NCBI RefSeq assembly: GCF_030815985.1
Contig: NZ_JAUSXM010000001.1
Location: 6,448,001 to 6,512,000, forward strand
DNA: 64,000 nt
Origin: Paenibacillus sp. W2I17
Lineage (GTDB): Bacteria; Bacillota; Bacilli; Paenibacillales; Paenibacillaceae
Direction: 5' to 3'
The position numbers and the translations under genes were made by a program. The stretch's first letter is position 1. Each line of letters opens with the position of its first letter. This document shows positions 8,439-47,727 of the stretch, in pieces. The notes below the pieces were generated by a model. The model ran no database searches. It was not told where the DNA came from and saw nothing but the letters and a program-made list of their open reading frames with translations.

Positions 8439-10063
<1,625 letters not shown>

Positions 10064-10076
10064 TTCTCTCGTTTCC

Positions 10077-10183
10077 AGGATTGTTACCGCATAAAAAGCG
10101 GGCAAAACCTAACACGAAAGTTGGCATGGAAGGAATCTGATGTTCCTGACAGCCCTTTTAGTTGGAGATTGTCCGCTTTTTCC
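10077..10183 (+). promoter_or_regulatory. LicT-type RAT antiterminator and terminator, before second glucosidase
   Basis: The RAT begins AGGATTGTTACCG and closes with GCGGGCAAAACCT (10077-10110). The competing terminator pairs AAAAGCGG with the CCGCTTTTT around 10172-10181 and also uses AACCTAAC with GTTGGAG. It sits 14 bases after the stop of the upstream gene, so it can act as an intercistronic switch on read-through transcripts. Confidence 0.88.
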
Positions 10184-10240: not shown

Positions 10241-11680
<1,440 letters not shown>

Positions 11681-11809: not shown

Positions 11810-11884
11810 GGATTGTTACTGTTCAATCAGGCAAAACCAGAAGCGGGGCATATTTCGTGACCTGCTTTGGTTTTGCCTTTTACT
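11810..11884 (+). promoter_or_regulatory. LicT-type RAT antiterminator and terminator, before licT
   Basis: The RAT reads GGATTGTTACTG, loop, CAGGCAAAACC (11810-11838). The terminator is unusually tight: AGGCAAAACCAGAAGC pairs with the GCTTTGGTTTTGCCT near 11864-11878, so it takes almost all of the RAT 3' arm, and T-rich sequence follows. The antiterminator gene is thus behind its own type of switch. Confidence 0.88.
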
Positions 11885-11913: not shown

Positions 11914-12765
11914 ATGAAAATTGAGAAGGTGCTGAACAACAACGTAGTTACCGTAATTGATCCGGGAGGAAACGAACTGGTCGTTATGGGACGTGGAATT
12001 GCCTTCAAAAAGCATACTGGTGAATCGATTGACGAAAGTCTCGTCGAAAAAATATTCTCGCTTGAAAGTAAGGAAGTATCACAGAAACTTAAAACACTTC
12101 TGTCTGATATCCCGGTTGAATATGTCGAGTGCTCGGATGAGATTATCCGTTATGCCGAGACGGTGTTAGGTGAGAAGCTGCATGAAAGCATCTACATTTC
12201 ACTGACGGATCATATTCATTTTGCCATTGATCGACATCGTCAAGGATTGCAGATCCGTAACGCATTGTTCTGGGAGATCAAGCGCATGTACCGGAAGGAA
12301 TATGCCATTGGACTCAAGGCGCTACAGATTATTGAGGAAACTTTAGGTGTCCTGTTACCCGAAGACGAATGCGCATTCATTGCAATGCATCTGGTTAATG
12401 CCCAGATGAACGGTGAGATGAGGGAAACGATCAGTATTACAAACATTGTTAAGGACATACTTAACATCGTAAGACGTAGCTTTGTGATTGAACTTGATGA
12501 AGATTCATTGAGTTATTATCGATTTTTAACTCATCTGAAGTTCTTTGCCCAACGTGTGCTGCAAGGAACGGCGATTGAAGATAAAGAAGAAGATAACCCG
12601 CTTCATGACTTGGTGAGCAAGCAGTATCCGGAAGCACATGCATGTGCAGTAAGGATCAGCGACTATACGCGTAAGATCTATAATCGGTTGTTGTCCAAGG
12701 AAGAAATACTGTATCTAACCATTCATATTGAACGAGTTGTCAGAAATGAACAAACAATTGAATAA
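11914..12765 (+). CDS. licT: transcription antiterminator LicT (BglG family)
   Basis: This RNA-binding regulator of 283 residues has three parts: the co-antiterminator domain (1-60; MKIEKVLNNNVV, GRGIAFKK) and two PRD domains. The four phosphorylatable histidines are present at 100 (LTDHIHFAI), 159 (AMHLVNA), 207 (LTHLKFFAQR) and 271 (TIHIERVV), almost the same numbers as Bacillus subtilis LicT. By family knowledge, HPr phosphorylation of PRD2 activates it and BglP-dependent phosphorylation of PRD1 inhibits it. It sits between the glucosidases and bglP. Its likely targets are the RAT elements at 8439, 10077, 11810, 12771, 37867 and 47640. Confidence 0.95.
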   Translation: MKIEKVLNNNVVTVIDPGGNELVVMGRGIAFKKHTGESIDESLVEKIFSLESKEVSQKLKTLLSDIPVEYVECSDEIIRYAETVLGEKLHESIYISLTDHIHFAIDRHRQGLQIRNALFWEIKRMYRKEYAIGLKALQIIEETLGVLLPEDECAFIAMHLVNAQMNGEMRETISITNIVKDILNIVRRSFVIELDEDSLSYYRFLTHLKFFAQRVLQGTAIEDKEEDNPLHDLVSKQYPEAHACAVRISDYTRKIYNRLLSKEEILYLTIHIERVVRNEQTIE

Positions 12766-12770
12766 AGTTG

Positions 12771-12860
12771 GGATTGTTACTGCTAAAAAGGCAAAACCTA
12801 AACGTTGAATAATGATAAGCTTTTCTGCTTTGTCATTATTCAGTGTTTAGGTTTTTTTTT
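12771..12860 (+). promoter_or_regulatory. LicT-type RAT antiterminator and terminator, before bglP
   Basis: The RAT reads GGATTGTTACTG, then the 3' arm GGCAAAACCT (12771-12799), starting 5 bases after the licT stop. The terminator arms are AAAACCTAAAC and GTTTAGGTTTT with an inner GAATAATGA/TCATTATTC stem. A run of nine T follows. Confidence 0.92.
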
Positions 12861-12893: not shown

Positions 12894-14801
12894 ATGGATA
12901 AACAACAATTGTCCAAGGATATTTTGAAGCTTGTTGGTGGCGAAGAGAATATCGATCAAGTCACACACTGTATGACAAGACTCAGATTTAACCTGAATGA
13001 CAACCAAAAAGCGGACAAAGCGACGCTAAAAAATACACCAGGTGTGATGGGCGTGATGGAGAACGGTGGACAGTTCCAGGTTATCATCGGTAACGATGTA
13101 CCTGTCGTGTATAACGCACTTGTTGGCAACATGTCCAAATCTCCAAACGCAGATAATGCAACATCAAGTGCTTCAACTGGGGAGAAGAAAAAGAGAAATC
13201 CGGTAAGTGCGTTGTTCGACTTCATTTCCGGTATATTTACACCGATTCTGCCAGCGATTACAGGTGCAGGTATGATCAAAGGGATCGTGGCCATCCTTGT
13301 TGCACTTGAATGGTTGTCCGACACCAGCTCGACCTACATCATTTTGTCTGCAATCGGTGACGGTGCATTCTACTTCCTGCCAATCATTCTGGCGATCAGT
13401 GCTGCACGCAAACTGGGTAGCAATATGTATATTGGTGCAGCGCTCGCGGCGGGCATTATGCATCCAACGATTACGGCATTACTAGTCGAAGGGGATTCAA
13501 CTTTTGCAGGGATTAAGGTTATTGCCGCAACTTACGCTTCTAGTGTAATCCCAATTATTCTTGCTATCTGGATTGCTTCTTATGTAGAGAAAGCAGTTAA
13601 TCATGTTACTCATGCTTCTCTGAAGCTCTTGGTTGTTCCAACAGTAACTCTGTTGATTATGGTTCCGCTGACCTTGATTACCGTTGGTCCATTAGGGACG
13701 GTACTCGGTAATGGTTTGTCTGGTGGTATTGCTTGGTTGTTCGACAATATGTCTATCTTTGCAAGTATCCTGATTGGTGGAACGATGTCACTGCTGATCA
13801 TCACGGGTATGCACTATGCCTTGCTGCCAATCGTTGTTGGTTCGATAGCAACGTTGGGCTATGACTATATTATTCCTTTAATGTTTGCAGCGAACTGGGC
13901 GCAGTCAGGTAGTGCCGTTGGTGTTGCGTTGAAATCAAAAAATGCTCAAACCAGATCTCTTGGCTACTCCACGGGTCTCACTGCTTTTATGGGAATTACT
14001 GAACCGGCCATGTATGGTATCAACATGAAATTTAAAAAACCGTTTATTGCAGCCCTGATCGGTGGAGCGGCAGGTGGTGCATTTATGGGTATTTTCCAAG
14101 CAAAAGCATTTGTACCAGTAGGTCTTGCAGGTTTGCCAAGTGTTGCTGCCTATATCAGTTCAGATATAAGTACACTCATTTATGCTGTTGGAGGTGCTTT
14201 AGTTGCATTGTTAGTAGCGGCAGTACTGACGTACATTCTTGGGTTCCAAGAAGAAAATGCATCGGAGCCAGTAGCTGCACCAGCAGCTGAGCCGGCAACA
14301 CCAGCAGCAACAACTTCTGCTGCTGTAACTGAAGAAGCAAAAGCACAAGATGAGCAAGTATTCAGCCCAATCACAGGTGAAGTTAAACCGCTGAGCGAAG
14401 TGCCGGACCCTGCATTCTCTGAAGAGATTATGGGTAAAGGATTCGCGATTCAACCATCTGAGGGCCGCGTTGTATCTCCGATCAACGGAACCGTGTTCTC
14501 GTTATCGAAGAGTGGACATGCCATTGGTCTGGTAAGTGATACAGGCGCAGAAATGTTGATTCATATCGGGATTGATACCGTGAAGTTGAAAGGTCAGTTC
14601 TTCTCTCCTAAAGTTCAAGCAGGTGCGAAGGTAACCGTAGGTGATGTACTGATGGAGTTCGACCGGGAACAGATCGAAAAAGCCGGTTATACAACGATTA
14701 CACCAGTCATTATTACAAACATGCATCAGTATGAGTCCATTGAGTCTGCTGGTCGCACTACGATCAAAGAAAAAGACTTGTTGTTCACAGCTAAAGCTTA
14801 A
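12894..14801 (+). CDS. bglP: beta-glucoside PTS transporter EIIBCA (BglP)
   Basis: It takes up and phosphorylates aryl-beta-glucosides at the membrane. Domain order is EIIB (1-85, phosphorylation Cys26 in VTHCMTRLRF), EIIC (about 105-455, multiple helices, GITEPAMYG motif), an Ala/Pro/Thr-rich linker (455-500) and EIIA (about 505-630, active His557 in MLIHIGIDTVKL). All three modules are complete; 635 residues is normal. AAAGGAGC precedes the ATG. Besides transport, it should inactivate LicT by phosphorylation when substrate is absent. It is the last gene of the cluster. Confidence 0.95.
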   Translation: MDKQQLSKDILKLVGGEENIDQVTHCMTRLRFNLNDNQKADKATLKNTPGVMGVMENGGQFQVIIGNDVPVVYNALVGNMSKSPNADNATSSASTGEKKKRNPVSALFDFISGIFTPILPAITGAGMIKGIVAILVALEWLSDTSSTYIILSAIGDGAFYFLPIILAISAARKLGSNMYIGAALAAGIMHPTITALLVEGDSTFAGIKVIAATYASSVIPIILAIWIASYVEKAVNHVTHASLKLLVVPTVTLLIMVPLTLITVGPLGTVLGNGLSGGIAWLFDNMSIFASILIGGTMSLLIITGMHYALLPIVVGSIATLGYDYIIPLMFAANWAQSGSAVGVALKSKNAQTRSLGYSTGLTAFMGITEPAMYGINMKFKKPFIAALIGGAAGGAFMGIFQAKAFVPVGLAGLPSVAAYISSDISTLIYAVGGALVALLVAAVLTYILGFQEENASEPVAAPAAEPATPAATTSAAVTEEAKAQDEQVFSPITGEVKPLSEVPDPAFSEEIMGKGFAIQPSEGRVVSPINGTVFSLSKSGHAIGLVSDTGAEMLIHIGIDTVKLKGQFFSPKVQAGAKVTVGDVLMEFDREQIEKAGYTTITPVIITNMHQYESIESAGRTTIKEKDLLFTAKA

Positions 14802-14812
14802 CCATAAAATGA

Positions 14813-14858
14813 AACAGCAGCTTCACCGGAATGTAATCCGGTAAAGCTGCTGTTTTTT
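14813..14858 (+). terminator. terminator after bglP
   Basis: AACAGCAGCTT pairs with AAGCTGCTGTT, with a second ACCGGA/TCCGGT stem nested inside, followed by TTTTTT. It marks the end of the glucoside cluster. Confidence 0.9.
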
Positions 14859-14870
14859 GCTTATAGCCTT

Positions 14871-15776
14871 TTACACCACGGGAAGCATTCCCTGAACCAA
14901 TTGCACAAAGTGTTGTGCAGGCTTGGACAGATAACGGTTCTGCAGCCAGACCAGCGCCGAGCCAACCGTGGAATGCTGATCCTGGATGCGATATACGTGG
15001 AATGGGTGCTCGTGATATAGCTGTAGTACCGTGTGAGGCACGATGGAACTGGCGAAGCCGAGTCGGACCAGTTCCAGCAACATATTAATGTCTGAGCACT
15101 CACCCATGATGGAGGGGGTAACCTGATGCTCCCGGAACTTGTCCAAAATTAGCTCGAACATACCGAGTCCTTCTGTGCTTGGAAGCAGTAGAGGGATACC
15201 TGTAAGCTGCTCAAAATAAGTCCCCATCTCCGCTCCTGGTCCCATCTCTGTCGGACTATCAAGCGGTGTTGAAGAAATATAGAAGAGTCGTTCCTGTGGC
15301 AGGTGCAGCACCTCATAGCGTTCTGTCTGGACGGGCATGCGTACACAGGCGAGTTCAACTTTGCCATCTTCCAGCAGGCGGCATAATTGTGCAGACTCAT
15401 TTTGCTGAATTTTATAGGTAACCTGTGGGTGGGTGGTGCGAAACTGTTGCAGTGCTTGCGGGATCAGGCGATCCGATATGGTATTGATGCCGATGGCGAG
15501 TTTGCCCCGTATGCCGTGACGGAAACTTTGCATCTCCATTACAGCTTCCTCCATATATTTGGTCAAGGTAACCGCATAATCATAGAAGCTGCGACCCGCC
15601 TGCGTTAGCTCCATCATGCGCCCTTTGCGTTCAAATAGAATCACACCAAGCTCTTCTTCCATTAACTTAAGCTGCTGGCTTAAGGGTGGCTGAGCCATGT
15701 GAAGTCTTCGGGCTGCTGCTGTAATCTGTTTCTCCTCAGCAATGGCAATAAAATAGCGACATTGTTTGATATCCAA
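14871..15776 (-). CDS. LysR family transcriptional regulator
   Basis: The 301-residue protein has the LysR winged helix at its N terminus (DIKQCRYFIAIAEEKQITAAARRLHMAQPPLSQQLK) and an effector domain from about residue 90. Start TTG at 15776 is preceded by AAGGAGA with 8 bases spacing; the upstream ATG frame at 15836 has no ribosome site. It diverges from the ankyrin and NCS2 permease genes, the usual LysR arrangement, so those are its probable targets. The ligand is unknown, though a purine or pyrimidine would fit the permease. Confidence 0.9.
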   Translation of the reverse strand: MDIKQCRYFIAIAEEKQITAAARRLHMAQPPLSQQLKLMEEELGVILFERKGRMMELTQAGRSFYDYAVTLTKYMEEAVMEMQSFRHGIRGKLAIGINTISDRLIPQALQQFRTTHPQVTYKIQQNESAQLCRLLEDGKVELACVRMPVQTERYEVLHLPQERLFYISSTPLDSPTEMGPGAEMGTYFEQLTGIPLLLPSTEGLGMFELILDKFREHQVTPSIMGECSDINMLLELVRLGFASSIVPHTVLQLYHEHPFHVYRIQDQHSTVGSALVWLQNRYLSKPAQHFVQLVQGMLPVV

Positions 15777-37714: not shown

Positions 37715-37752
37715 TTGCGAACGCTTACATTATGTGCTAACATCACCATAAC
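37715..37752 (+). promoter_or_regulatory. possible promoter with cre-like overlap, upstream of the secreted esterase
   Basis: CTTACA (37724-37729) and CATAAC (37747-37752) are 17 bases apart. The -35 is part of AACGCTTACA, a right-half match to the cre consensus. A second similar element, GCGTTTACA, occurs at 37830-37838 but lacks a good -10, so which one drives the esterase transcript is open. Confidence 0.4.
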
Positions 37753-37755
37753 AAC

Positions 37756-37785
37756 AGGATTGTAACCGTGTTTAGGGCAATACCT
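37756..37785 (+). promoter_or_regulatory. degenerate RAT-like element
   Basis: AGGATTGTAACCG, a loop, then GGGCAATACCT can fold like a RAT (AGG/CCT, TTG/CAA, CC/GG). It differs from the consensus 3' arm (GCAATACC instead of GCAAAACC) and no terminator overlaps it downstream. If the promoter at 37724 is used, the first few bases may be outside the transcript. Confidence 0.3.
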
Positions 37786-37866: not shown

Positions 37867-37958
37867 AGGGTTGTTACTGATTGCAGGCAAAACCTGAATT
37901 GAGGGCAGTAGACCACGCTAAAGCGATGTCTGTTTGCCTTCGGTTCAGGTTTTTTTTA
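37867..37958 (+). promoter_or_regulatory. LicT-type RAT antiterminator and terminator, before secreted carboxylesterase
   Basis: The RAT reads AGGGTTGTTACTG, a short loop, then CAGGCAAAACCT (37867-37896), one base off the consensus GGATTG. The terminator pairs AAACCTGAA with TTCAGGTTT, with inner GAGGGCA/TGCCTTC and AGAC/GTCT stems, then eight T. This is the same switch as in the licT cluster about 26 kb upstream. Confidence 0.9.
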
Positions 37959-38163
37959 TATAAAAAAATGCCTGATGGCATGACCGTAAGCGCCGTAGCA
38001 GATATTTCAAGCAGAAAGGAGCGCAGCAGATTTAATTTTTCCTAAATAGAGATATAGACTCATCCAGACATTGGAATACTGATTCTTAGATACGCATTTC
38101 AACTGAACATTTCCAATGAAATTATCCCATCACACACTATTGGACAGCGAGGAGATTTATGAC
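37959..38163 (+). other. untranslated leader of the carboxylesterase
   Basis: About 205 bases between the RAT terminator and the esterase start. Apart from an isolated AAAGGAGCG not followed by a usable start codon, I see no gene, hairpin or second promoter in it. Confidence 0.5.
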
Positions 38164-40407
38164 ATGAAAACTATTAAACGTTCGATTGCTGTAGCAACAA
38201 TTCTGGGGTTATGTGTATCCGCTCTACCAGCTTATGCAGCAGGCAATACAGGACCTACTTCTTCTGCAGCGATGGACAAGCTGATCCAATCCGAGCTTAT
38301 TCGCGGCAGCGGTCAAGGTGTTAATGCAGCTTATTTGAACAAAAAGGCAACACGCATTCAGGCCGCAGTACTTTACTTGCGTTTGTCCGGATTGGAGAAA
38401 GAAGCACTCGCTTATCAGGGATCGGAAACGTACGACGATGCGGCTCAGGCAGGCAAAGTATTGCAACCGGTCGTTGGTTACTTGAAGCAGCATCCGTATG
38501 TGTCTGAGATCGTAACAGGAACAGATACGTTTGAACCTAATGCACCACTTACAGCGGAAGGGTATGCCGAAATGCTGCTGAAGGTGCTTGGATATGAAGC
38601 AGGTACGGATTATGAGCAGGGAGCGGCTTCCACCTATGCGGCTGGGAAAGGAATCATGGCGCTTCAAGGGAAGGGAGCGAGTCAACTTACCAACCGCCTG
38701 ATGGCAGAGGCAACCGCACAGGCTTTGCAGATACAGCTCAAGAATGGCAGTGGAACTTTGGAGCAGAGTTGGTTGAAACATAAAGAAGCTGGGTCGTTCA
38801 AACCTCAAACGGTGCAACAGACCAAGTATGGCGCGATTGATGGCAAAACCTATGAGCAATATGGCACGCTCGGCTGGCTTGGTGTTCCTTACGCGGCACC
38901 TCCGGTAGGGGAACTGCGCTGGAAAGCCCCGCAAGAACCAGAAGCATGGACAGGAACCAGATCGGCTAAGGAATTTGCAGCGAACAGCTTGCAGATCTCC
39001 GGCAAGACTACAGCAGGAAGCGAGGATTCGCTGTATCTCAATATCTGGCGTCCCGACACAACCAGTTCGAAACTTCCGGTTATGGTGTTCCTGCACGGCG
39101 GCGGGAATATGACCGGATCAGGCAAAGATTTTCAGGGTGAACAGCTTGCACGGAGCACCAACAGCATCATCATTTCCGTGAATTACCGTTTGGGAGCCCT
39201 TGGATTCTTCGAGAATGCAGCACTGAAAACAGGCAATGCCCTGGATGACTCAGGTAACTATGGTCTGCTTGACGCATTCCGTGCATTGGAGTGGGTGCAG
39301 GATAATATCGAAGGTTTTGGCGGAGATACAGGCAATGTTACATTAGCCGGACAATCTGCTGGTGCACGTGATGTGCTGGCAACTCTGATCTCTCCACTTA
39401 GCAAAGGATTGTATCAAAAAGCAGTTGCTTTCAGCGGAGGATTGACGACAGCATCACCGGAAGAAGGCGAGCAAAAATCCGAGGATGTGCTTGTGAAGCT
39501 ACTCGTGCAAGAGGGGAAAGCGGCTAATGCAGAAGAAGCAAAAGCATGGATTGGCAAGCAATCTCAGGCACAGCTGGAGAGCTATCTGCGTGCACTTCCT
39601 GCGGACAAGTTGGTCACTGCTTTTGGCGCAACGGCAATCCGTATGGACCCATTTCCGCATCTGTTCAGAGATGGTACAGTGATTCCAAAAGAAGGATTTG
39701 ACGCCATCAATAATGGCAATTACACGAAAGTCCCTGTATTGCTCGGCAGCCTGGAAACGGAGTTCTCCGGTTTTGCCTTCGGTGATCCGAACTTCGCTCC
39801 ATCCATCGCAGATGAGACTCTGTTTACTGATAAAACCAAGGCGGAACAATATGCTGCTGCGTTGAAATACGGAAGCGAAGCTTATGCAGGCTTTAATGCA
39901 GAGCGTGTAGCGGAGCATTTGACAAATGAAGCAGGTCAGCCACCGGTATATGCGTATCGTTTTGCATGGGGCACACAACCTGGGGTCATCTCTGAGCGTT
40001 TGCTAACGTTACTGGGTGCACCACATGGTGCGGATATGGACTTCTATACAGGACACGCAGACGGAATTGCTGCCTATTTCCCTGATGGGTACTTTAGCGA
40101 TACAAACAAACCAGGACGTGATCAGTTGTCCGCCGCGATGGCAGCGTATCTGAAGCAGTTCCTGTACACAGGCAATCCAGGTACGGGTGGATCACCTGAT
40201 CTAGCGGCATGGACACCTTGGACGAAAGATGCTCAAGCCCCAATCATGCGTCTGGATGCAAGCAATACAACGGCAGAGATTGGCATGTCGACACAATATA
40301 ACCAAGGCAAAGACGCCGTTAGGGCAAAGATGAAAAAAGAATTGCCTGAAGAAACGTATAAACTGTTGACGGAAAAAGTGTTCGCAGGTCGTTTCTTCTG
40401 GGAATAA
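38164..40407 (+). CDS. secreted carboxylesterase type B with N-terminal SLH-like region
   Basis: The 747-residue exported esterase has a signal peptide (MKTIKRSIAVATILGLCVSALPAYAA). Residues ~30-200 look like two or three degenerate S-layer-homology units (LIRGSGQGVNAAYLNKKATRIQAAVLYLRL; TFEPNAPLTAEGYAEMLLKVLGY). The type-B carboxylesterase domain follows: EDSLYLNIW, FLHGGGN oxyanion motif and catalytic Ser398 in AGQSAGA. ATG at 38164 is preceded by GAGGAG; the ATG at 38116 would hide the signal peptide. The upstream RAT ties it to beta-glucoside induction; a role on plant-polymer esters is inferred. Confidence 0.88.
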   Translation: MKTIKRSIAVATILGLCVSALPAYAAGNTGPTSSAAMDKLIQSELIRGSGQGVNAAYLNKKATRIQAAVLYLRLSGLEKEALAYQGSETYDDAAQAGKVLQPVVGYLKQHPYVSEIVTGTDTFEPNAPLTAEGYAEMLLKVLGYEAGTDYEQGAASTYAAGKGIMALQGKGASQLTNRLMAEATAQALQIQLKNGSGTLEQSWLKHKEAGSFKPQTVQQTKYGAIDGKTYEQYGTLGWLGVPYAAPPVGELRWKAPQEPEAWTGTRSAKEFAANSLQISGKTTAGSEDSLYLNIWRPDTTSSKLPVMVFLHGGGNMTGSGKDFQGEQLARSTNSIIISVNYRLGALGFFENAALKTGNALDDSGNYGLLDAFRALEWVQDNIEGFGGDTGNVTLAGQSAGARDVLATLISPLSKGLYQKAVAFSGGLTTASPEEGEQKSEDVLVKLLVQEGKAANAEEAKAWIGKQSQAQLESYLRALPADKLVTAFGATAIRMDPFPHLFRDGTVIPKEGFDAINNGNYTKVPVLLGSLETEFSGFAFGDPNFAPSIADETLFTDKTKAEQYAAALKYGSEAYAGFNAERVAEHLTNEAGQPPVYAYRFAWGTQPGVISERLLTLLGAPHGADMDFYTGHADGIAAYFPDGYFSDTNKPGRDQLSAAMAAYLKQFLYTGNPGTGGSPDLAAWTPWTKDAQAPIMRLDASNTTAEIGMSTQYNQGKDAVRAKMKKELPEETYKLLTEKVFAGRFFWE

Positions 40408-40446
40408 AATTAGTCAACAAATCAACTTAACGTGAATTTAAATTAA

Positions 40447-40477
40447 AATGGACAGTAGAATAACTCTACTGTCCATT
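40447..40477. terminator. stem-loop between the esterase and a convergent gene
   Basis: AATGGACAGTAGA and TCTACTGTCCATT form a perfect 13-base stem with a 5-base loop. No strong T run follows on either strand, but the AT-rich surroundings make bidirectional termination plausible. Confidence 0.6.
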
Positions 40478-40556
40478 CAAGATATAATAAATATGATAGA
40501 TTAAACAAGTACTGGTGTGGTTACATAAGTGAATGTTTTTTCTTTCTGATATAGTA

Positions 40557-41099
40557 TTAAAGGTCTCTACTGATATTTCCATTCCCTGAAACACTGTAGC
40601 TGCTATGATTGTAAACATATATCCGGTATGTTCCTTGTGGTACCGTTACTTGTGTACTAGTGTTAGTATGAGTATGATTACCAAAAATGTAACCTTCCGC
40701 AATAGTAGAACCGTTATTAGGATTGGCAAAAATGTATGAAACTGTAGGGCTGCGAACCAGTTGTAAACTGTCTGCCCATTGTACCGCTGTGATTTTGTAT
40801 TGTCCTCGTTCAGACACGGTAATAGTTTGACCTGTATTGTAAAGTCCGTTTTTTGCTAAAGATTCAAACTGCCATACTGCACTTGAAGCAGCCAGTGTTG
40901 AATATACATCAGATGAAGAATTATCTTTAATAATAGTCTGGTTTGCATCAAGCTCAGTTAGATTACTTAATAATTCCGCTGCTTCTGTATCTGTTAAGAC
41001 TACCTTACTTGGTGTTTCAGCAGATTCTGCGGCGAAAACATTCGTACTGAAGCTGAAAACTAATACGATAATAAGTAGAGTTTTAAATATTTTTTTCAA
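40557..41099 (-). CDS. secreted low-GC protein of unknown function
   Basis: The 180 residues begin with a signal peptide (LKKIFKTLLIIVLVFSFSTNVFA). The mature part is polar, rich in Ser, Thr and Asn, with a beta-rich C terminus (HTHTNTSTQVTVPQGTYRIYVYNHSSYSVSGNG) suggesting a small beta-sandwich. TTG at 41099 sits after AGGAGGTATTTTT. Codon use and the surrounding DNA are visibly more AT-rich than neighbours, suggesting separate acquisition. No family recognised. Confidence 0.7.
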   Translation of the reverse strand: MKKIFKTLLIIVLVFSFSTNVFAAESAETPSKVVLTDTEAAELLSNLTELDANQTIIKDNSSSDVYSTLAASSAVWQFESLAKNGLYNTGQTITVSERGQYKITAVQWADSLQLVRSPTVSYIFANPNNGSTIAEGYIFGNHTHTNTSTQVTVPQGTYRIYVYNHSSYSVSGNGNISRDL

Positions 41100-41246
41100 A
41101 AAAATACCTCCTAAAATATAATTATGTAAAACTATTCCATAATTATATCTCAAATGGTTTAAATAGTCAAATTAATTGAGTATTATCCATTTCATTATAA
41201 TTAATATTTTTTTATTGAGTAGTAATAATCTAACTCAAGTTTAGAG

Positions 41247-41286
41247 AAATGCCCCTCAAAGCCTTTGAAAAGGTAGAGGGGCATTT
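41247..41286. terminator. terminator after the beta-propeller gene
   Basis: AAATGCCCCTC and GAGGGGCATTT form an 11-base stem with an inner AAGCCTTTGAAAAGG hairpin; T-containing flanks are present on both strands. Confidence 0.75.
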
Positions 41287-41293
41287 TCGAGAT

Positions 41294-42880
41294 CTATTTC
41301 TTGGCAAAAAAACTAAGTGTTCCGGTGCTTTCATCTGCACTCACAAACAGGCTACGTCCGTTAACACGATGAATTCCCTCTGGTGATTCTCCGGCTGTAG
41401 GAATCAGACCCAGGTAGTCCGGATTGACCGGATCAGCAAGATCAAAGAACAAAATGGCATCTGCCCTTTCGGAAGCTACGGCTGCATACGTAGTGCCGTC
41501 TACAGTAGCAACGGTCAGGTTCTCAACTTCGCTGCCCTTGTTGGGACTGCGATCATCGGGATACAAGCCAACCATGGCAGTTGCCTCGTCAATGAGGTTC
41601 TGGCTATCATACATCCGCTTGCCTTGCAGATCCCAGACAGCAATATTACGTCCGCCTGCTTTTACACTATCCTCAAATTCATTCTTGCCCAAGTCCCCTT
41701 CATTGGCTGTCAGCAGGTATTTACCATCTGCCGAGAAAGCAATCCCATCCGGCTCATAACGAGCGGTCAACGTCTCTTTAAACTGAACGATACCATCATC
41801 TTTCAGATCTGCTTGATGTGAAGTGGTACCCAGAGCGAAGAATGAGCTGATTTTTTTTGTCTCCAGATCTACAATGGCAACGACATTGTTTTCCTGTAGC
41901 GTGATGGCTGCTGTTTTACTATCTGGACTAATGGCAACATACTCTGGTTGTGGATCATGCGGATAGATGGCGCCATCTACATTGTCCAGAGAGACCGGTA
42001 AGTTGGTGATCTCGCCCTCCAATACGTTCCCGCCAGCAAAAGATACTACCATAATGCTACCCGGACGTTTGGTGTTGGCATAGTCAATTTCATCGGTAGC
42101 TTTATTCAGCTCCTCATCCTCTATCGCGATCACCGCATGCAGACCGTCAGTTGACAGTGCAATCGAGTCAGGACCAATGCCCAGTTCATACGTTTTGACG
42201 GTTTTGTAGGTTGTCAGATCCACAATGGCAAGCAATCCTTTGTTTGCTTCACTGTCTGTATCCCCTGTACGAATAACAGCAAGACCGTATTTACCATCTT
42301 TGGACACGGTTACGCTTGTGACTTCAGCTTTGGCGGAAAGGTCATGGAAGCTGACTGTCTTTAATACGTTAATGTTTTTCAAGTCAGCAATATCCAGTAT
42401 GGCAATGCTACCATTGTCCGCTTCGGTTACGAGCAGGCGCTGTCCATCTGGCGTGGAGGCTGATATTTCTGCTTTGCCACCGGGCATCTGAAACGATGCG
42501 GTCTGTTCAAAACCGGTTTTATTTTGTTTCAGGATCAGTTGATCCGTAATTAATTTTAGCGTTTGGGAAGATACATACGTTGTACCTTTGGTGATGTAAC
42601 TTTTACTGTCCAAAGGAGTTTTCACACCGTTGATGGTGGCTGAAGACGTTCCTATTGGAAGTTGTACTTTAGTATCTGCGATCTGGATATCAACACTGCG
42701 ACTGCTTCCGTTCCATGTGACCGTACCCTGCATATTTTGGATGGCTGTACGCAGTACGACATGATCATTGGTAGTTTTAGTTGCGTCAGCGGCATGAATC
42801 ATGGATGTGTAGCTGGTTGCTCCTGCGGTAAGAATGGCAGTCATCGACAGAACGGCAAGCCATTGATTTCTCTTTTTCAA
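41294..42880 (-). CDS. secreted beta-propeller protein with stalk domain (choice-of-anchor-I-like)
   Basis: The 528 residues start with a signal peptide (cleavage near SMIHA). A copper-amine-oxidase-N-like stalk domain follows (about 40-115; VTWNGSSRSVDIQIADTKVQLPIG, TYVSSQTLKLI). From ~130 to the end there are repeated propeller blades (GQRLLVTEADNGSIAILDI, DGKYGLAVIRTGD, YVAISPDSKTAAITLQENNVVAIVDL, DGKYLLTANEGD), as in choice-of-anchor-I or LVIVD proteins. Surface binding or phosphate-linked roles have been suggested for relatives. It is monocistronic, near the esterase and with no RAT. Confidence 0.8.
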   Translation of the reverse strand: MKKRNQWLAVLSMTAILTAGATSYTSMIHAADATKTTNDHVVLRTAIQNMQGTVTWNGSSRSVDIQIADTKVQLPIGTSSATINGVKTPLDSKSYITKGTTYVSSQTLKLITDQLILKQNKTGFEQTASFQMPGGKAEISASTPDGQRLLVTEADNGSIAILDIADLKNINVLKTVSFHDLSAKAEVTSVTVSKDGKYGLAVIRTGDTDSEANKGLLAIVDLTTYKTVKTYELGIGPDSIALSTDGLHAVIAIEDEELNKATDEIDYANTKRPGSIMVVSFAGGNVLEGEITNLPVSLDNVDGAIYPHDPQPEYVAISPDSKTAAITLQENNVVAIVDLETKKISSFFALGTTSHQADLKDDGIVQFKETLTARYEPDGIAFSADGKYLLTANEGDLGKNEFEDSVKAGGRNIAVWDLQGKRMYDSQNLIDEATAMVGLYPDDRSPNKGSEVENLTVATVDGTTYAAVASERADAILFFDLADPVNPDYLGLIPTAGESPEGIHRVNGRSLFVSADESTGTLSFFAKK

Positions 42881-43127
42881 TGTTCCAGATCCCCTTTATC
42901 GTTTCGTGTGTAATGAGTTATACAATTGTTTTAGTATAGGGAGCTAATGTTAAGGTGAGGTAAGAGAAGTCTGCGATTTGTGTAAAAGGTTAGATAAGAG
43001 ATATTTTTCCAAATTGGATATGTAAGTTAGCGTATAAAATGATGTTGCCACATGAAGAAAAAAGCAGACGTGAACCTTCATATATATAGGACTGGTCGAA
43101 CAGAAGAAAATACGCTAGAATTATAAT
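42881..43127. other. non-coding divergent region
   Basis: About 250 bases before the Fur-like box. It must hold the promoter of the leftward propeller gene. I saw no open frame with a ribosome site and no distinctive repeat. A TATAAT at 43122-43127 directly abuts the Fur-like box. Confidence 0.4.
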
Positions 43128-43142
43128 TGAGAATCATTATCA
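43128..43142. promoter_or_regulatory. Fur box
   Basis: TGAGAATCATTATCA matches the 7-1-7 Fur consensus TGATAATNATTATCA at all but one specified base. It lies about 60 bases before the PchR-like regulator start and next to a TATAAT hexamer, so iron-dependent repression of that gene is expected. Confidence 0.8.
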
Positions 43143-43201
43143 ATTAATTCAGGCTTTCTTTACTGACAAGTCTGATCAAGATATAGGCGAGGTGAATACC
43201 C

Positions 43202-44161
43202 GTGCGCACGGATGATGCATTAGGCGTAGTATATCAGCATTACCTGACCCAGGAACCTTACAGTCAGCAAGATGAACACACGTATCTGCTCTCTCCCAAG
43301 GCGGGAAGTGGCAATATTAAAAGAGTAACGACATACAGTGGCATTGAGATTTTATATTCCCAGGTTGAATATCATCAGCCGTATCCAACGTATTTTGCAT
43401 CCGAAACGCCCATTGTGGAATTGCAATTTGCCTTGTCAGGAGAGCGAAATGTGGATATATCCGGTCAGGATTATTCATTATCGATAGGGCAAGGGGCCCT
43501 TATTTTTATGCATGATTTCGAAGCGTGGTTTCATCCTCCAGCAAGGGAGCTGTATACGTCCTTTTCGCTGGGGATTCCGGTTTCTCTGTTCAATTATGCT
43601 GCGGCGCAACTAGGCAGTTTCAAGCCGATTGCGTTTAATCAGGTGTTAGGGCGAAAAGTGTTCAAGCCAATTGTATTTCAATTGGATAACCGGATACGAA
43701 CGATGATCGACAGTTTGATTGTAGAATTAAACAACAGTTATCGATCATCCTTAATGATGGAAGCGACAGCGTTGGAAATCTTTAATCGATTTATGATCCA
43801 ATTGTTTGATCTGGCGCCAATCCCCGCGGGATTCTCCAGAGAGGACATCCGGAAGTTACATACGGCACGGGAGATTATGGAGGCTTGTATGGTAGATCCT
43901 CCATCTTTGCTAGCATTGTCCAGACAGGTGGGTCTTAACGATTTTAAATTAAAAAAAGGATTCAAGGCACTTTTCGGAAGCACGGTGTTCGAATATTTGC
44001 GTCAGGTTCGTCTCGACAACGCCATGAAGTTGCTGCGCAATCAGAATAACAACGTCACCGAGGCCGCGATTGCGGTCGGTTACAGCAATGTCAGTGCCTT
44101 TTCGCAGCAATTTTATCGCAAATTCGGCGTGAAGCCTTCCGAGATGAAAAAGATTTATTAA
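43202..44161 (+). CDS. AraC family regulator, PchR-like
   Basis: The 319 residues have an AraC-type C terminus; its DPPSLLALSRQVGLNDFKLKKGFKALFGSTVFEYLRQVRLDNAMKLLRN segment and the second helix-turn-helix (NNVTEAAIAVGYSNVSAFSQQFYRKFGVKPSEMKK) closely resemble PchR-type siderophore regulators. The N-terminal half is a ligand domain without signal peptide. GTG at 43202 follows GAGGTG. A Fur box sits upstream and a siderophore-exporter-like MFS gene follows 111 bases later, so an iron-siderophore sensing role is likely. Confidence 0.85.
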   Translation: MRTDDALGVVYQHYLTQEPYSQQDEHTYLLSPKAGSGNIKRVTTYSGIEILYSQVEYHQPYPTYFASETPIVELQFALSGERNVDISGQDYSLSIGQGALIFMHDFEAWFHPPARELYTSFSLGIPVSLFNYAAAQLGSFKPIAFNQVLGRKVFKPIVFQLDNRIRTMIDSLIVELNNSYRSSLMMEATALEIFNRFMIQLFDLAPIPAGFSREDIRKLHTAREIMEACMVDPPSLLALSRQVGLNDFKLKKGFKALFGSTVFEYLRQVRLDNAMKLLRNQNNNVTEAAIAVGYSNVSAFSQQFYRKFGVKPSEMKKIY

Positions 44162-44272
44162 TAAATCCGGCTTGCCGTGAATTGTTCCGTATAGAGGCAG
44201 TGGGGATTCTCTCAGCCTTGTATACTCCAGGTACAGTGGGTACTGTACTGAAATATAGAGGAGTGTATGAGC

Positions 44273-45475
44273 ATGAACCGAATCAGAGGAAGTATTTTTT
44301 TTAGCGTATTTGCAGCCATGTTGGGTCTGATGCTGATTGCACCCATAATGCCGCCGCTTATTCGCGAGTTGGGCATGAAAGAAAGCCATTCCGGTCTTAT
44401 TATCTCGCTAGGGTCCATTATGATGGCTGTCATGGCTCCGGTATGGGGCAGATGGAGTGATATAAGAGGAAGAAAATCAATCATATTGATTGGATTTATA
44501 GGTATGTCTGTGAGCTGTGCATTATTTGCACTGGCATTGTACGGGGGATTGAATGCATGGATCGGAGGGGGCGTGTTATTAACTCTTCTGATTGTGACGC
44601 GCAGTCTGATCGGTATGTTTATTCCGGCTGTACTTTCTTCTGCCCAGGCCTATATGGGTGATGTGACAGAAGGGAAGGAGCGGGGAAGCGGGATGGCGAT
44701 TATCAGTGCTGCGAATGGACTTGGCCTTGTATTTGGACCTGCGATTGCAGGAGCTTTTACCCTTATCGGTCTGCTCTGGCCGCTTTATTTTGGCATTTTT
44801 ATAGCGATAGCTGCGTTTATTATTGCCTTGTTGTTAATCCCGTCAGCCAAACCGGTCATTCAGGCAAAACCGCCTAAAGTCAACCCGTTCCAACGTGGTT
44901 TACGAATGTACCTTGCTGCCGGCTTGGTCACGATGATGGGTATCATGACACTACAGGTTGTCGGGGGATTTTATTTTCAGGATCAACTGGCTCTATCCTC
45001 AGCGGCGACGGCCCGAATGGTTTCGTTTGGACTCATGTTCTCTGGAGCAGCGATGTTGATCATGCAGGTCATTCAGATGAAATGGTTGAAATGGCAGCCA
45101 CGTCCGATGATTTTGCTCGGTTCCCTTTTCCTCATCGCAAGCATGATCCTGTTTTTGGTTTTCAATGTGTTATCCATGTATTATTTCTCGTTTTTCCTGT
45201 TTGGCATGGGTGCAGGTCTGATGATGCCCGGGTTCATGGCAGGTGCTTCGCTGGCAGTTAGCAAAGAACAGCAGGGAGGTGCAGCGGGATTGGTAGCAGC
45301 GATTCAGGGGATATCCGCCGTCATTACGCCTTTACTTACAACGACACTTTATCAGGTGGACAAACATGTTCCATTTATGCTCGTAGCTGTTCTGGTTGTC
45401 TTGCTGGCAATCATGATGCTGGGAATGCGAAAGAATCAATCCCATAACGTAGTGGACCCCACTCATTCGTTATAG
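44273..45475 (+). CDS. MFS transporter, possible siderophore exporter
   Basis: The 400-residue, 12-helix DHA1-type drug or metabolite exporter has the motif-A-like loop GRWSDIRGRKSIIL and motif-C-like GLGLVFGPAIAGAF. ATG at 44273 is 9 bases after GAGGAG; an earlier ATG at 44267 is too close. Its pairing with a Fur-linked PchR-like regulator recalls siderophore exporters such as YmfD or EntS. Substrate is inferred from context only. Confidence 0.8.
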   Translation: MNRIRGSIFFSVFAAMLGLMLIAPIMPPLIRELGMKESHSGLIISLGSIMMAVMAPVWGRWSDIRGRKSIILIGFIGMSVSCALFALALYGGLNAWIGGGVLLTLLIVTRSLIGMFIPAVLSSAQAYMGDVTEGKERGSGMAIISAANGLGLVFGPAIAGAFTLIGLLWPLYFGIFIAIAAFIIALLLIPSAKPVIQAKPPKVNPFQRGLRMYLAAGLVTMMGIMTLQVVGGFYFQDQLALSSAATARMVSFGLMFSGAAMLIMQVIQMKWLKWQPRPMILLGSLFLIASMILFLVFNVLSMYYFSFFLFGMGAGLMMPGFMAGASLAVSKEQQGGAAGLVAAIQGISAVITPLLTTTLYQVDKHVPFMLVAVLVVLLAIMMLGMRKNQSHNVVDPTHSL

Positions 45476-45584
45476 TCAGACAAAGTCAGAAGATCAAATA
45501 AGGTCAAAATAAAAGAAAAAAGGATCTATTTTAAAATAGTGAACCATGATGAAAGAAAATCGTTTTTTTCGTCTTTTACGGACT

Positions 45585-45613
45585 TTGAGCCTTATTTGTA
45601 CGGGTATTATAAT
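45585..45613 (+). promoter_or_regulatory. sigma-A promoter of the Hsp20 gene
   Basis: TTGAGC (45585-45590) and TATAAT (45608-45613) are 17 bases apart, about 50 bases before the start codon. No CIRCE or CtsR heptad repeat is seen next to it. Confidence 0.6.
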
Positions 45614-45665
45614 AATCAATGTAAGCAACACCAATAAACCAACCACACAAAAGGAGCTGATTTTC

Positions 45666-46109
45666 ATGTTTGATCTGATTCCGTTTCGTAAACGAAATGA
45701 AGACCCGTTCGGACACATGTTGAAATCCTTCAATGACATGGTTGAGAACTCATTCCTCTCCCCTTTTGGAACTGGCTCCCAGCCATTCCGGACCGACATT
45801 CGTGAGGAAGAAGACAAATATTCGGTAGAAGCCGAGCTTCCGGGCATTGCCAAAGAGGATATAGACATTCAGGTTCAAGGTAATGAATTGATTATTCGTG
45901 CCAAACGCAATGATATAGTGGAGCAGAAGGATGACTCCAATCGAATCATACGGCAAGAACGCCGTTCCGGCGAATTTATCCGGCGATTCTATGTTGATCA
46001 TATTGATGAGGAGCACATTAAGGCCAGATTGGAAGAAGGTGTGCTCAAGCTCGAGATTCCGAAACGTCCTGGTGATGAACAATCTCGCAGACGCATTCAA
46101 ATTGACTAA
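45666..46109 (+). CDS. small heat-shock protein, Hsp20 family
   Basis: The 147-residue holdase binds unfolding proteins without ATP. The alpha-crystallin domain spans about 40-140: FRTDIREEEDKYSVEAELPGIAKEDIDIQVQGNELIIRA, then the signature GVLKLEIPKR. ATG at 45666 is preceded by AAAAGGAGC; upstream in-frame ATGs at 45546 lack a site and add a doubtful hydrophobic segment. It ends in a strong hairpin. Confidence 0.93.
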   Translation: MFDLIPFRKRNEDPFGHMLKSFNDMVENSFLSPFGTGSQPFRTDIREEEDKYSVEAELPGIAKEDIDIQVQGNELIIRAKRNDIVEQKDDSNRIIRQERRSGEFIRRFYVDHIDEEHIKARLEEGVLKLEIPKRPGDEQSRRRIQID

Positions 46110-46144
46110 TACACAGTGGAAAAAATAGTTTCCTTACATGGTGA

Positions 46145-46187
46145 AAAGCATGCAGGAGACATCCATAAGGATGTTTCTGCATGCTTT
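46145..46187. terminator. bidirectional terminator between hsp20 and DUF1697 gene
   Basis: AAAGCATGCAG and CTGCATGCTTT form an 11-base stem with a nested ACATCC/GGATGT hairpin and AT-rich flanks. Confidence 0.8.
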
Positions 46188-46243
46188 ATTTGTCATATGA
46201 ATTGGACGATATATAACTGACTATCCATTGTGCTGGTTCCGAG

Positions 46244-46801
46244 TTATTTCTCTGCTGCTGCTTGCATCAGGGCATAGATCTTATGTGTGGTATTCACGTT
46301 TCTAACCGTCATATAGGCATATACTTTGGATCCGACAAGCTTGTTCATGCCACTTCTACCTGCGTCCTCTCTGCTGACTGAATACAAAATGGCTCCGGGA
46401 ACATAAATCAGTGTGCCGATTTCCGGTTTGATGGGCAGCTTGTCCAGTACGGTGGGCTCATTGATCTCATCCCAAAGGAACATCACATCACTTTTGGCCG
46501 TGTCATCATTAACCCATTCTTCTGGCAGCGCCTGAATAACGCTTTGGATTTCATCCATATTCCGCACCATTACCCTGATCTGTAAACCAAAATCGGTGGT
46601 GATGGCCTGTTCTAACACATGGGATATCTCCACATTCGGATTGGCACGTTCCTGATGATCGGCAAAAATAATATTGCCAGAATTGATGTAGGTAACGACA
46701 TCCAGCATGCCTGCTTGTTCAAACGTTTCTTTCAGCTGCTTCATATTAATTTTATTGTTCCCACCTACATTAATGCCTCTTAGCAAAGCCACATAGATCA
46801 T
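46244..46801 (-). CDS. DUF1697 family protein
   Basis: The 185 residues start with the family signature MIYVALLRGINVGGNNKINM followed by YINSGNIIF. DUF1697 proteins are small soluble alpha/beta proteins of unknown activity, common in Firmicutes and actinobacteria. GGAGGGG precedes the ATG. It follows a SMI1/KNR4-type gene with 34 bases between, so the two are probably co-transcribed. Confidence 0.88.
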   Translation of the reverse strand: MIYVALLRGINVGGNNKINMKQLKETFEQAGMLDVVTYINSGNIIFADHQERANPNVEISHVLEQAITTDFGLQIRVMVRNMDEIQSVIQALPEEWVNDDTAKSDVMFLWDEINEPTVLDKLPIKPEIGTLIYVPGAILYSVSREDAGRSGMNKLVGSKVYAYMTVRNVNTTHKIYALMQAAAEK

Positions 46802-46835
46802 ATGGGCGCCCCTCCAATTCCTTTAATTCACCGTT

Positions 46836-47486
46836 TTAACAAAAGGACAGATATTCGAAAAGATGAGCAGTATACTCATCTCCCAACAGATCTTGCAATA
46901 AAGGTTCCACATGCTCCAGATACTCGGGCTTGGTTTCATAAGTTTCTTCATCTTTTACTTCTCCGGCATAGGTGCGCGCCGCTTCAATCAGGATGGCTAG
47001 TGCACTGAAAAAGTCTGACAGCGAGTCAGCGACGCGATTAGGTTCTCCCCCTGTAAAAGCCGCATATACAGGAGAGTTCGGCGATTCAGTATCTACGATT
47101 AACGGATCATCGTTAAAGTTTGCGATGACGACGTGATTTTTTGGCCAAGTGGAGGACTCCTCATAAGGTTCATTCATGCCAATCCAGCGGAACCCCAGTT
47201 GCTGACGAAGCAGATGTTCAGGTGCAACAAAGGAAATCAGTGCGGCATCACCGATTTCGACGGCGGCATTTTTCATTTTGAGTGTACCTTCCGCATCCGC
47301 ATCCATCATTTCATAATGACTGTACAGATACTGAAGTTCTGGAGAAAGAGGTATTCGTGTATCCACTTCCGGCTGGTGATGTTGTTCGCGGGGACGCAGA
47401 TCATGATTTTTGAAAAGTCCATAAGCTTCATTATATAAATCCTGCTGTTCCACAAAACGGCTCAAGGCCGCATCCAGTTGTTGCAT
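46836..47486 (-). CDS. SMI1/KNR4-like protein
   Basis: The 216 residues resemble YrhA-type SMI1/KNR4 proteins: PLSPELQYLYSHYEMMDADAEG, RQQLGFRWIGMNEPYEESSTWPKNHVVIANFNDDPLIVDTES and VADSLSDFFSALAIL. AGGAGGACTC precedes the ATG. The family overlaps with immunity proteins to polymorphic toxins, but no toxin is found here. It leads the two-gene unit with DUF1697. Confidence 0.75.
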   Translation of the reverse strand: MQQLDAALSRFVEQQDLYNEAYGLFKNHDLRPREQHHQPEVDTRIPLSPELQYLYSHYEMMDADAEGTLKMKNAAVEIGDAALISFVAPEHLLRQQLGFRWIGMNEPYEESSTWPKNHVVIANFNDDPLIVDTESPNSPVYAAFTGGEPNRVADSLSDFFSALAILIEAARTYAGEVKDEETYETKPEYLEHVEPLLQDLLGDEYTAHLFEYLSFC

Positions 47487-47590
47487 GATGTCTGAGTCCT
47501 CCTAATAACATTGATATAATAACAGGCCGATTCGTTTGATTCTTGGCTATAAGCATTATACTATATCAAAGATAAATTCAAAAAAACATT

Positions 47591-47627
47591 TGAATACGTT
47601 TACATTCATGAGTGGACATGATATACT
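47591..47627 (+). promoter_or_regulatory. promoter with overlapping cre site, before the Sde182-like gene
   Basis: TTTACA (47599-47604) and TATACT (47622-47627) are 17 bases apart. TGAATACGTTTACA (47591-47604) matches the cre consensus TGWAANCGNTNWCA at all but one position and covers the -35, so CcpA would block it in glucose. The start point falls a few bases before the RAT. Confidence 0.75.
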
Positions 47628-47639
47628 TTCACTCAAATA

Positions 47640-47727
47640 AGGATTGTTACTGCTTCGGGCAGGCAAAACCTGAACATCACTATGCGTGGACTTTGTTCCA
47701 TTCATAATGTTGTTCGGGTTTTTTTGC
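47640..47727 (+). promoter_or_regulatory. LicT-type RAT antiterminator and terminator, before the Sde182-like gene
   Basis: The RAT reads AGGATTGTTACTGC, loop, GGCAGGCAAAACCT (47640-47671), a full match to the core arms. The terminator pairs AACCTGAACA with TGTTGTTCGGGTT, then seven T. Apart from the licT cluster and the esterase leader, no other such element occurs in the window. Confidence 0.92.

Follow-up and report, generated by a model that had tools for sequence, protein, structure and literature searches.

The 64,000-nucleotide stretch analysed here, referred to as the window, comprises bases 6448001–6512000 of the 7.0-Mb single-contig genome of Paenibacillus sp. W2I17. It harbours a licT cluster, in which the gene of the antiterminator LicT stands together with genes of a β-glucoside phosphotransferase system (PTS) and of glycoside hydrolase family 1 (GH1), and, outside this cluster, two genes encoding exported proteins, a carboxylesterase and an Sde182-like lipoprotein (Table 1). 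A preliminary description of the locus had reported ribonucleic antiterminator (RAT) arms with overlapping terminators at 37867 and 47640, that is, before these two genes. Both elements are confirmed here; they lie some 25 and 35 kb away from the end of licT (stop codon at 12765), close to the 26 and 36 kb given at that time. Based on sequence comparison, we classify the leaders of the esterase and Sde182 genes as members of the LicT class of RAT-terminator switches.

Table 1. Features of the two leaders, the genes they precede, and the licT cluster (window coordinates).
Feature	Position	Strand	Evidence
RAT1 of esterase leader, GGATTGTAACCG...GGGCAATACC	37757..37784	+	R1 25.6 bits, E 7.8e-4 genome-wide
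RAT2 of esterase leader, GGGTTGTTACTGATTGCAGGCAAAACC	37868..37894	+	R1 33.9 bits, E 1.3e-6 genome-wide; pattern match
Intrinsic terminator, overlaps 3' arm of RAT2, then T run	37889..37953	+	-37.1 kcal/mol, z -6.5
RAT of Sde182-like gene, GGATTGTTACTGCTTCGGGCAGGCAAAACC	47641..47670	+	R1 36.0 bits, E 2.4e-7 genome-wide; pattern match
Intrinsic terminator, overlaps 3' arm of Sde182 RAT, T tail	47665..47722	+	-31.5 kcal/mol, z -6.2
cre-like box before esterase leader	37716..37730	-	exact WTGNAANCGNWNNCW match
cre-like box overlapping -35 region of Sde182 promoter	47591..47605	-	WTGNAANCGNWNNCW-type match
Promoter-like TTTACA-17-TATACT, TG before second hexamer	47599..47627	+	10/12 consensus positions
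Carboxylesterase, 747 aa, signal-like N-terminus	38164..40407	+	PF00135 E 1e-86
Sde182-like lipoprotein, 544 aa	47819..49453	+	PF07632 E 7.7e-72, PF21027 E 4.8e-21; ISGC lipobox
RAT before GH1 6-phospho-β-glucosidase gene (8597-10063)	8440..8468	+	pattern + R1
RAT before second GH1 gene (10247-11680)	10078..10109	+	pattern + R1
RAT in licT leader	11810..11838	+	pattern + R1
LicT antiterminator, CAT_RBD + 2 PRD	11914..12765	+	NF046042 393.8 bits vs cut-off 300
RAT between licT and PTS gene	12771..12798	+	pattern + R1
β-glucoside PTS EIIABC	12894..14801	+	TIGR01995

Architecture of the two leaders

The strict RAT pattern TTGTTACTG-N2-10-CAGGCAAAACC occurs three times in the window (11813, 37871 and 47644), whereas 100 shuffles gave 0.00 occurrences on average. 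A looser version yields eight matches in the entire genome, of which the licT cluster accounts for four and the two leaders for one each, the other two standing beside other antiterminator genes (at 377 kb and 1.63 Mb); the reversed control pattern yields none. We then trained a covariance model, R1, on 21 RATs, with the elements at 37868–37894 and 47641–47670 left out. In the underlying alignment, from which these two elements are likewise absent, 95.2% of the cells pair, changes on both sides are seen at three pairs, and the covariation score is equalled in none of 500 shuffles. Applied to the whole genome, with 150 of 6147 first-look candidates scored and the E-values being rough, R1 gave 24 matches below E 1e-3. 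Eighteen of these are located at genes of antiterminators, PTS proteins or GH1 enzymes, four in the leaders of the esterase (two matches), the Sde182-like gene and a chemoreceptor gene, and the other two at 1053005 and 4312911. Most of the 24 are expected, because several of their sequences are training rows of R1, and the matches from outside the training rows are the Sde182 RAT, esterase RAT2, esterase RAT1 and the chemoreceptor RAT. Both elements named in the preliminary description, which had proposed a search of this kind, were thus recovered by a model that excludes them. The features of a LicT/BglG-type switch, that is, two helices with internal loops and a conserved core, are present in the R1 and pattern matches.

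The 3' arms of RAT2 and of the Sde182 RAT overlap intrinsic terminators, which none of 200 shuffles equals in folding, while for RAT1 such an overlap is unclear and no convincing terminator of its own was found downstream. The esterase terminator is not listed by the automatic terminator scan because its stem and loop exceed the limits of the scan. The RAT hairpins by themselves are no better than shuffles (24/200 and 43/200 as good), so that the case for the RATs rests on sequence, covariation and conservation; weak stand-alone folding is expected of a structure needing a protein, and is no proof either.

RAT1 and a box resembling a catabolite-responsive element (cre) before each leader had been overlooked in the preliminary description. 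Four matches to WTGNAANCGNWNNCW, which we take to be the CcpA consensus, are seen in the window where 1.39 are expected, two of the four being located directly before the two leaders, and the box at 37716–37730 is aligned and conserved in most of the relatives shown in the leader alignment. The promoter-like hexamers of the Sde182 gene end 13 bases 5' of its RAT; their support is one of position only, because chance alone would produce 1.6 sites of this quality in the stretch.

Conservation within the genus and further RAT loci

In a comparison set of 75 congeneric genomes, from which counts of the Sde182 gene, the esterase, LicT orthologues, AptA and GH140 were obtained, the Sde182 gene is present in 47 and intact in 42, and a RAT lies upstream of each intact copy (30/30 and 12/12 in two examinations). 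Likewise, in a set of named genomes that shares some of its members with this one (see below), all 26 loci with a Paenibacillus title have a RAT within 320 bp upstream. The Sde182 terminator stems vary widely in sequence among the relatives, with complementarity still visible. For the esterase, the loci of 44 genomes with a close match were examined, the 45th (G042) being a 76-residue fragment that was left out. The RAT1/RAT2 pair is present in 37 of the 44, including one (L067) with a weak RAT1 (E 0.13). In the seven loci devoid of the pair the match does not begin before residue 131, and six of them have a stop; in P. massiliensis (L154/L214 and L155/L216) the esterase lacks its N-terminal 200 residues, yet the pair is present. 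In two loci (L078 and L083) RAT1 and RAT2 are set apart by roughly 190 bp of additional DNA, which is similar between the two. Judging from these relatives, the predicted RAT switch on the two exported-protein genes is old.

Old leaders might be inherited relics that no longer regulate, and the five genomes with a broken, split or partial Sde182 gene provide some support for this idea: three of them (G007, G015 and G021) keep the RAT, as does G028, where it precedes a remnant (L160) that has lost its terminator, and only in G071 is it absent. We nonetheless consider decay very improbable, since all 42 intact genes have kept their RAT and since the terminator stems change in sequence but remain complementary across distinct leaders.

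A further RAT with a T-tailed terminator is located directly before a chemoreceptor gene (G000:C1:1382609–1382639, minus strand, L315; R1 30.1 bits, E 2.4e-5), the product of which comprises MCPsignal, HAMP and weak dCache domains. In the genus set, with 15 candidates scored per genome, a RAT precedes the chemoreceptor gene in 28 of 28 loci. Tandem RATs 111 bp apart are found at G000:C1:392859 and 392970 (L314) before a gene for a PTS enzyme II (EII), the second with an E-value of only 0.02.

The exported proteins and the neighbourhoods of their relatives

Residues 1–210 of the esterase could not be assigned to a domain with confidence (an SLH match at E 2.1 falls short of the cut-off), and the protein is 40% identical to a paralogue encoded at 4.79 Mb. 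The Sde182-like protein exceeds the curated cut-offs of both of its families (PF07632, 242.5 bits versus 26.8; PF21027, 75.6 bits versus 27). Its closest named matches are Paenibacillus records, and its sole relative by sequence in the PDB is 2yhg, Sde_0182 of Saccharophagus degradans. An acidic motif, D65-G-E-V-D69-D70, does not vary among the 23 homologues aligned and corresponds to ADPDD of 2yhg; we infer that it may bind calcium and a furanose. PF07632 is a large family, with 5631 of 8000 scored candidates matching at E <= 1e-20.

The alignment of the 23 Sde182-like proteins served as query against 84,980 named genomes. The best 80 of 149 matches comprise 26 Paenibacillus records, several of them the same genomes as in the 75-genome set, and 54 others, around which some of the neighbourhood stretches are short. 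Among the latter, operons join the two protein families. In L231 the order on one strand is licT, RAT, bglP, Sde182, carboxylesterase lipoprotein, GH1, GH1, and it recurs in L254 with a 5'-incomplete Sde182 gene; L244 has RAT, bglP, carboxylesterase, Sde182; L236 has RAT, bglP, EstA-like esterase, Sde182; L273 has licT, bglP, GH1, Sde182, EstA-like esterase; and L226 has licT, bglP, Sde182, two RATs, GH1. The RATs of L231, L226, Clostridium zeae, Ignavigranum and the Bacillus/Neobacillus/Niallia type are training rows of R1, and their scores are thus high by construction, whereas those of L217, L218, L222, L228, L236, L244 and L267 are outside the training rows. The presence of two unrelated esterase types beside the Sde182 gene suggests a substrate with ester groups, and the conserved neighbours of the Sde182 homologues (LicT, β-glucoside PTS, GH1 and esterase) tie both families to β-glucoside antitermination.

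Hence, the esterase and Sde182 genes are probably dispersed members of a BglG/LicT-type β-glucoside regulon, the exported members of which would trim plant glucosides that carry acyl or pentosyl (perhaps apiosyl) groups. Several observations weigh against this interpretation. Beyond Paenibacillus, a RAT lies within 320 bp upstream in only 8 of the 54 loci (two of Saccharibacillus and one each of Bacillus, Neobacillus, Niallia, Salipaludibacillus, C. zeae and Ignavigranum), a LicT, BglP or GH1 relative is found nearby in 16 and an esterase relative in 6, in stretches of which some are short. The L231 esterase is only 38% identical to that of the window, and is thus no closer to it than the paralogue at 4.79 Mb. 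The promoter scan gave no consensus promoter before the esterase RATs, and in two genus genomes without a LicT orthologue (G018 and G026) the Sde182 gene is intact and still preceded by its RAT. Furthermore, Rfam finds no family at gathering score in the whole window, the RATs of the licT cluster included; RF03530 scores 24.1 bits at 12791–12860 (80 required). The latter shortfall is one of an Rfam model that does not cover this clade, rather than of an absent switch. Other sub-threshold Rfam matches, such as mir-194 at 14797–14871, were taken as chance.

A D-apiose-type gene is located near the Sde182-like gene in 8 of the 54 loci; the rest of the 54 (Coriobacteria, Selenomonads and others) are those in which neither it nor a relative of the licT cluster was seen in the stretches examined, some of them short.

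The preliminary description had instead seen the two genes as extending β-glucoside control to the use of cellulose or other extracellular polymers. The exported location of both proteins, the Pfam label and the naming of 2yhg as a cellulose-binding protein speak for it. We consider this improbable: a cellulose-binding role is a matter of the family label, and the recurrent neighbours of the Sde182 gene are PTS EII, GH1 phosphoglucosidases, esterases and apiose-type genes, with no polysaccharidase recurring in the neighbourhoods examined, which is why we set a role in cellulose use aside in favour of decorated glucosides. Moreover, according to a review, Sde_0182 shows no activity on nucleosides and probably binds furanose (PMC8910321).

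Apiose as a candidate substituent

Apiose occurs in furanose form. It is described in abstracts as a branched-chain sugar of plant glycosides, and the genes of a D-apiose cluster of E. coli are named in PMC13001218. Five loci (L219, L227, L264, L269 and L272) have homologues of AptA (48–52% identity) and AptB (36–41%) next to an Sde182-like gene whose product lacks a signal sequence, and a homologue of the kinase AplK (34–38%) is present in these loci and also in L221. In Kluyvera (L249), the Sde182-like gene adjoins an apiosidase-like gene of PF13204 (E 8.5e-82), as well as ATP-binding cassette (ABC) genes that are 50–56% identical to those of the E. coli D-apiose cluster. PF13204 is a known apiosidase family distinct from PF07632, and has one copy in the window genome (G000:C1:6425292–6426281, about 23 kb before the window).

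Within the genus, AptA is encoded in 21 genomes, and in four of nine loci inspected by non-random choice the D-apiose operon stands beside the cluster of a second antiterminator, BglG2 (L283–L286); there it is divergent from the GH1-antiterminator-PTS genes, L286 having broken apiose genes. Across the 75 genomes AptA is weakly associated with an intact Sde182 gene (16/42 versus 5/33, p 0.04; in this and the following comparisons genomes are counted as independent and kinship is ignored). Against the apiose lead stand the absence of AptA at E <= 1e-45 from the window genome and the lack of association between GH140 and intact Sde182 genes in the 75 genomes (22/42 versus 14/33, p 0.49). Gene neighbourhood is what speaks for an apiosidase activity, which the Sde182-like protein perhaps has. 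One may speculate further that PF07632 proteins of Bacillota are furanosidases, most likely apiofuranosidases built on a nucleoside-hydrolase fold, that together with the esterase they form the exported front end of a β-glucoside PTS pathway serving plant glucosides with acyl or apiosyl substituents, and that this front end and the chemoreceptor are switched, together with uptake, by LicT-type antiterminators; in this full form the proposal is rather doubtful.

The cognate antiterminator

Control of the two genes by an antiterminator of the BglG/LicT family is very likely. As to which one, the genome encodes 12 CAT_RBD proteins. An NCBIfam scan of 11 of them (that at 4.31 Mb was left out) assigned nine to LicT, one to GlcT and one to neither. 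BglG2, encoded at 1.63 Mb, passes the LicT model with 385.3 bits, and its RATs (GGATTGTTAC...GGCAAAACC) have the same core as those of licT and of the Sde182 gene, whereas RAT2 of the esterase leader departs from this core at position 3 (G) and RAT1 ends with CAATACC. RAT position 8, considered as a mark of specificity, was rejected because T and A both occur within the licT cluster.

With a threshold of at least 70% identity, a LicT orthologue is encoded in 64 of the 75 genomes: in 37 of 37 with the esterase leader (27/38 others, p 4e-4) and in 40 of 42 with an intact Sde182 gene (24/33 others, p 0.008). The two exceptions, G018 and G026, both have BglG2 systems. Therefore, LicT of the window is likely the partner, and BglG2 a possible one. 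That BglG2 is even the main partner would agree with its LicT-type score and RAT core, with the Sde182 RATs retained in G018 and G026, and with the D-apiose genes adjoining its cluster; the location of esterase, Sde182 and licT genes within about 35 kb in the window genome argues against it, as does the co-occurrence of LicT with all 37 esterase leaders, although this was counted for LicT only. A leading role of BglG2 is a serious possibility, but not the one we favour. The control by LicT put forward in the preliminary description hence stands in so far as the leaders are of the LicT class and the neighbourhoods point to β-glucoside antitermination, and is weakened as to the window's own LicT, given nine LicT-type proteins among the 11 scanned, the RAT core shared with BglG2, and G018 and G026.

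The tandem leader of the esterase might, moreover, serve two antiterminators of different specificity and thereby combine two PTS signals. In the aligned relatives RAT1 ends with CAATACC or CAAGACC and RAT2 with CAAAACC, the same genome contains systems with RATs ending with CAAGACC (0.98 Mb) and CGATACC (3.62 Mb), the pair is widely kept, and a tandem pair likewise precedes the PTS gene at 392859/392970. RAT1, however, has no clear terminator, scores lower and is weak in L067, and might just as well be a leftover or offer a single protein an additional site; we regard the two-signal leader as conceivable but unlikely.

Returning to a β-glucoside regulon, transcription would start just 5' of the RAT and stop by default at the overlapping terminator. 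When the β-glucoside PTS is transporting, a dephosphorylated LicT-type dimer, presumably LicT of the window, BglG2 or both, would bind the RAT and block the terminator, so that the exported esterase and Sde182-like lipoprotein are made, while the cre-like boxes may add a shut-off under preferred sugars. The exported proteins would then most likely strip acyl groups or pentofuranosyl residues (e.g., apiose) off plant β-glucosides, rendering these usable by the PTS and the 6-phospho-β-glucosidases.

This interpretation provides a function lead for the large PF07632 family that a single enzyme assay can test, and implies that the PTS-sensing antiterminators reach exported proteins and, possibly, chemotaxis. 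In addition, one genome offers natural tandem-RAT leaders and nine LicT-type paralogues for tests of specificity and cross-talk.

Comparison with known systems

Searches of the open-access literature turned up no work that describes RATs ahead of PF07632 or carboxylesterase genes, deals with antitermination by LicT in Paenibacillus, or identifies PF07632 proteins as apiosidases. The type of switch is of a known kind, and its targets and the tandem esterase leader are new as far as that literature shows.

The Sde182-like lipoprotein shares with Sde_0182 the nucleoside-hydrolase-like fold family and a β-sandwich (profile match E 1.5e-60), the two sequences being distant; we know of no regulation of Sde_0182. 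Homologues of the D-apiose cluster (AplK, AptA, AptB) of E. coli SE15 and Pectobacterium flank several Sde182-like genes, but no PF07632 gene is among the listed products of the E. coli cluster, and the window genome, as stated above, has no AptA at E <= 1e-45.

In B. subtilis, LicT controls bglS, which encodes a secreted lichenase. Likewise, the exoenzyme levansucrase gene sacB is induced by antitermination, according to a title cited in PMC6148471. The extension of antitermination to extracellular polymer enzymes, which the preliminary description had envisaged, therefore has a precedent. SacY–sacB and LicT–bglS are similar in that antitermination acts on an exported carbohydrate-active enzyme away from a PTS operon; neither target described here, however, is a polysaccharidase.

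Two RATs, GGATTGTTACTG-N6or7-CAGGCGAGACC, have been deletion-tested with a reporter in bglGTH of Clostridium acetobutylicum (PMC12628678). They resemble the esterase leader in number but flank bglG inside the operon, and the available portion of that paper describes no dispersed targets.

A close resemblance is also seen to LicT/RAT of bglPH (B. subtilis) and bglP (S. mutans) and the BglG/SacY family, with which the present system shares the RAT core, the overlap with a terminator, the CAT_RBD-PRD-PRD protein, and the cluster of EII and phospho-β-glucosidase. The RAT is near the transcription start in both, at a distance of 4 bases for bglP of S. mutans (PMC1489936). What distinguishes the system described here is that its predicted targets extend beyond the cluster to the genes of a carboxylesterase, a chemoreceptor and a lipoprotein of PF07632, and that the esterase leader contains two RATs.

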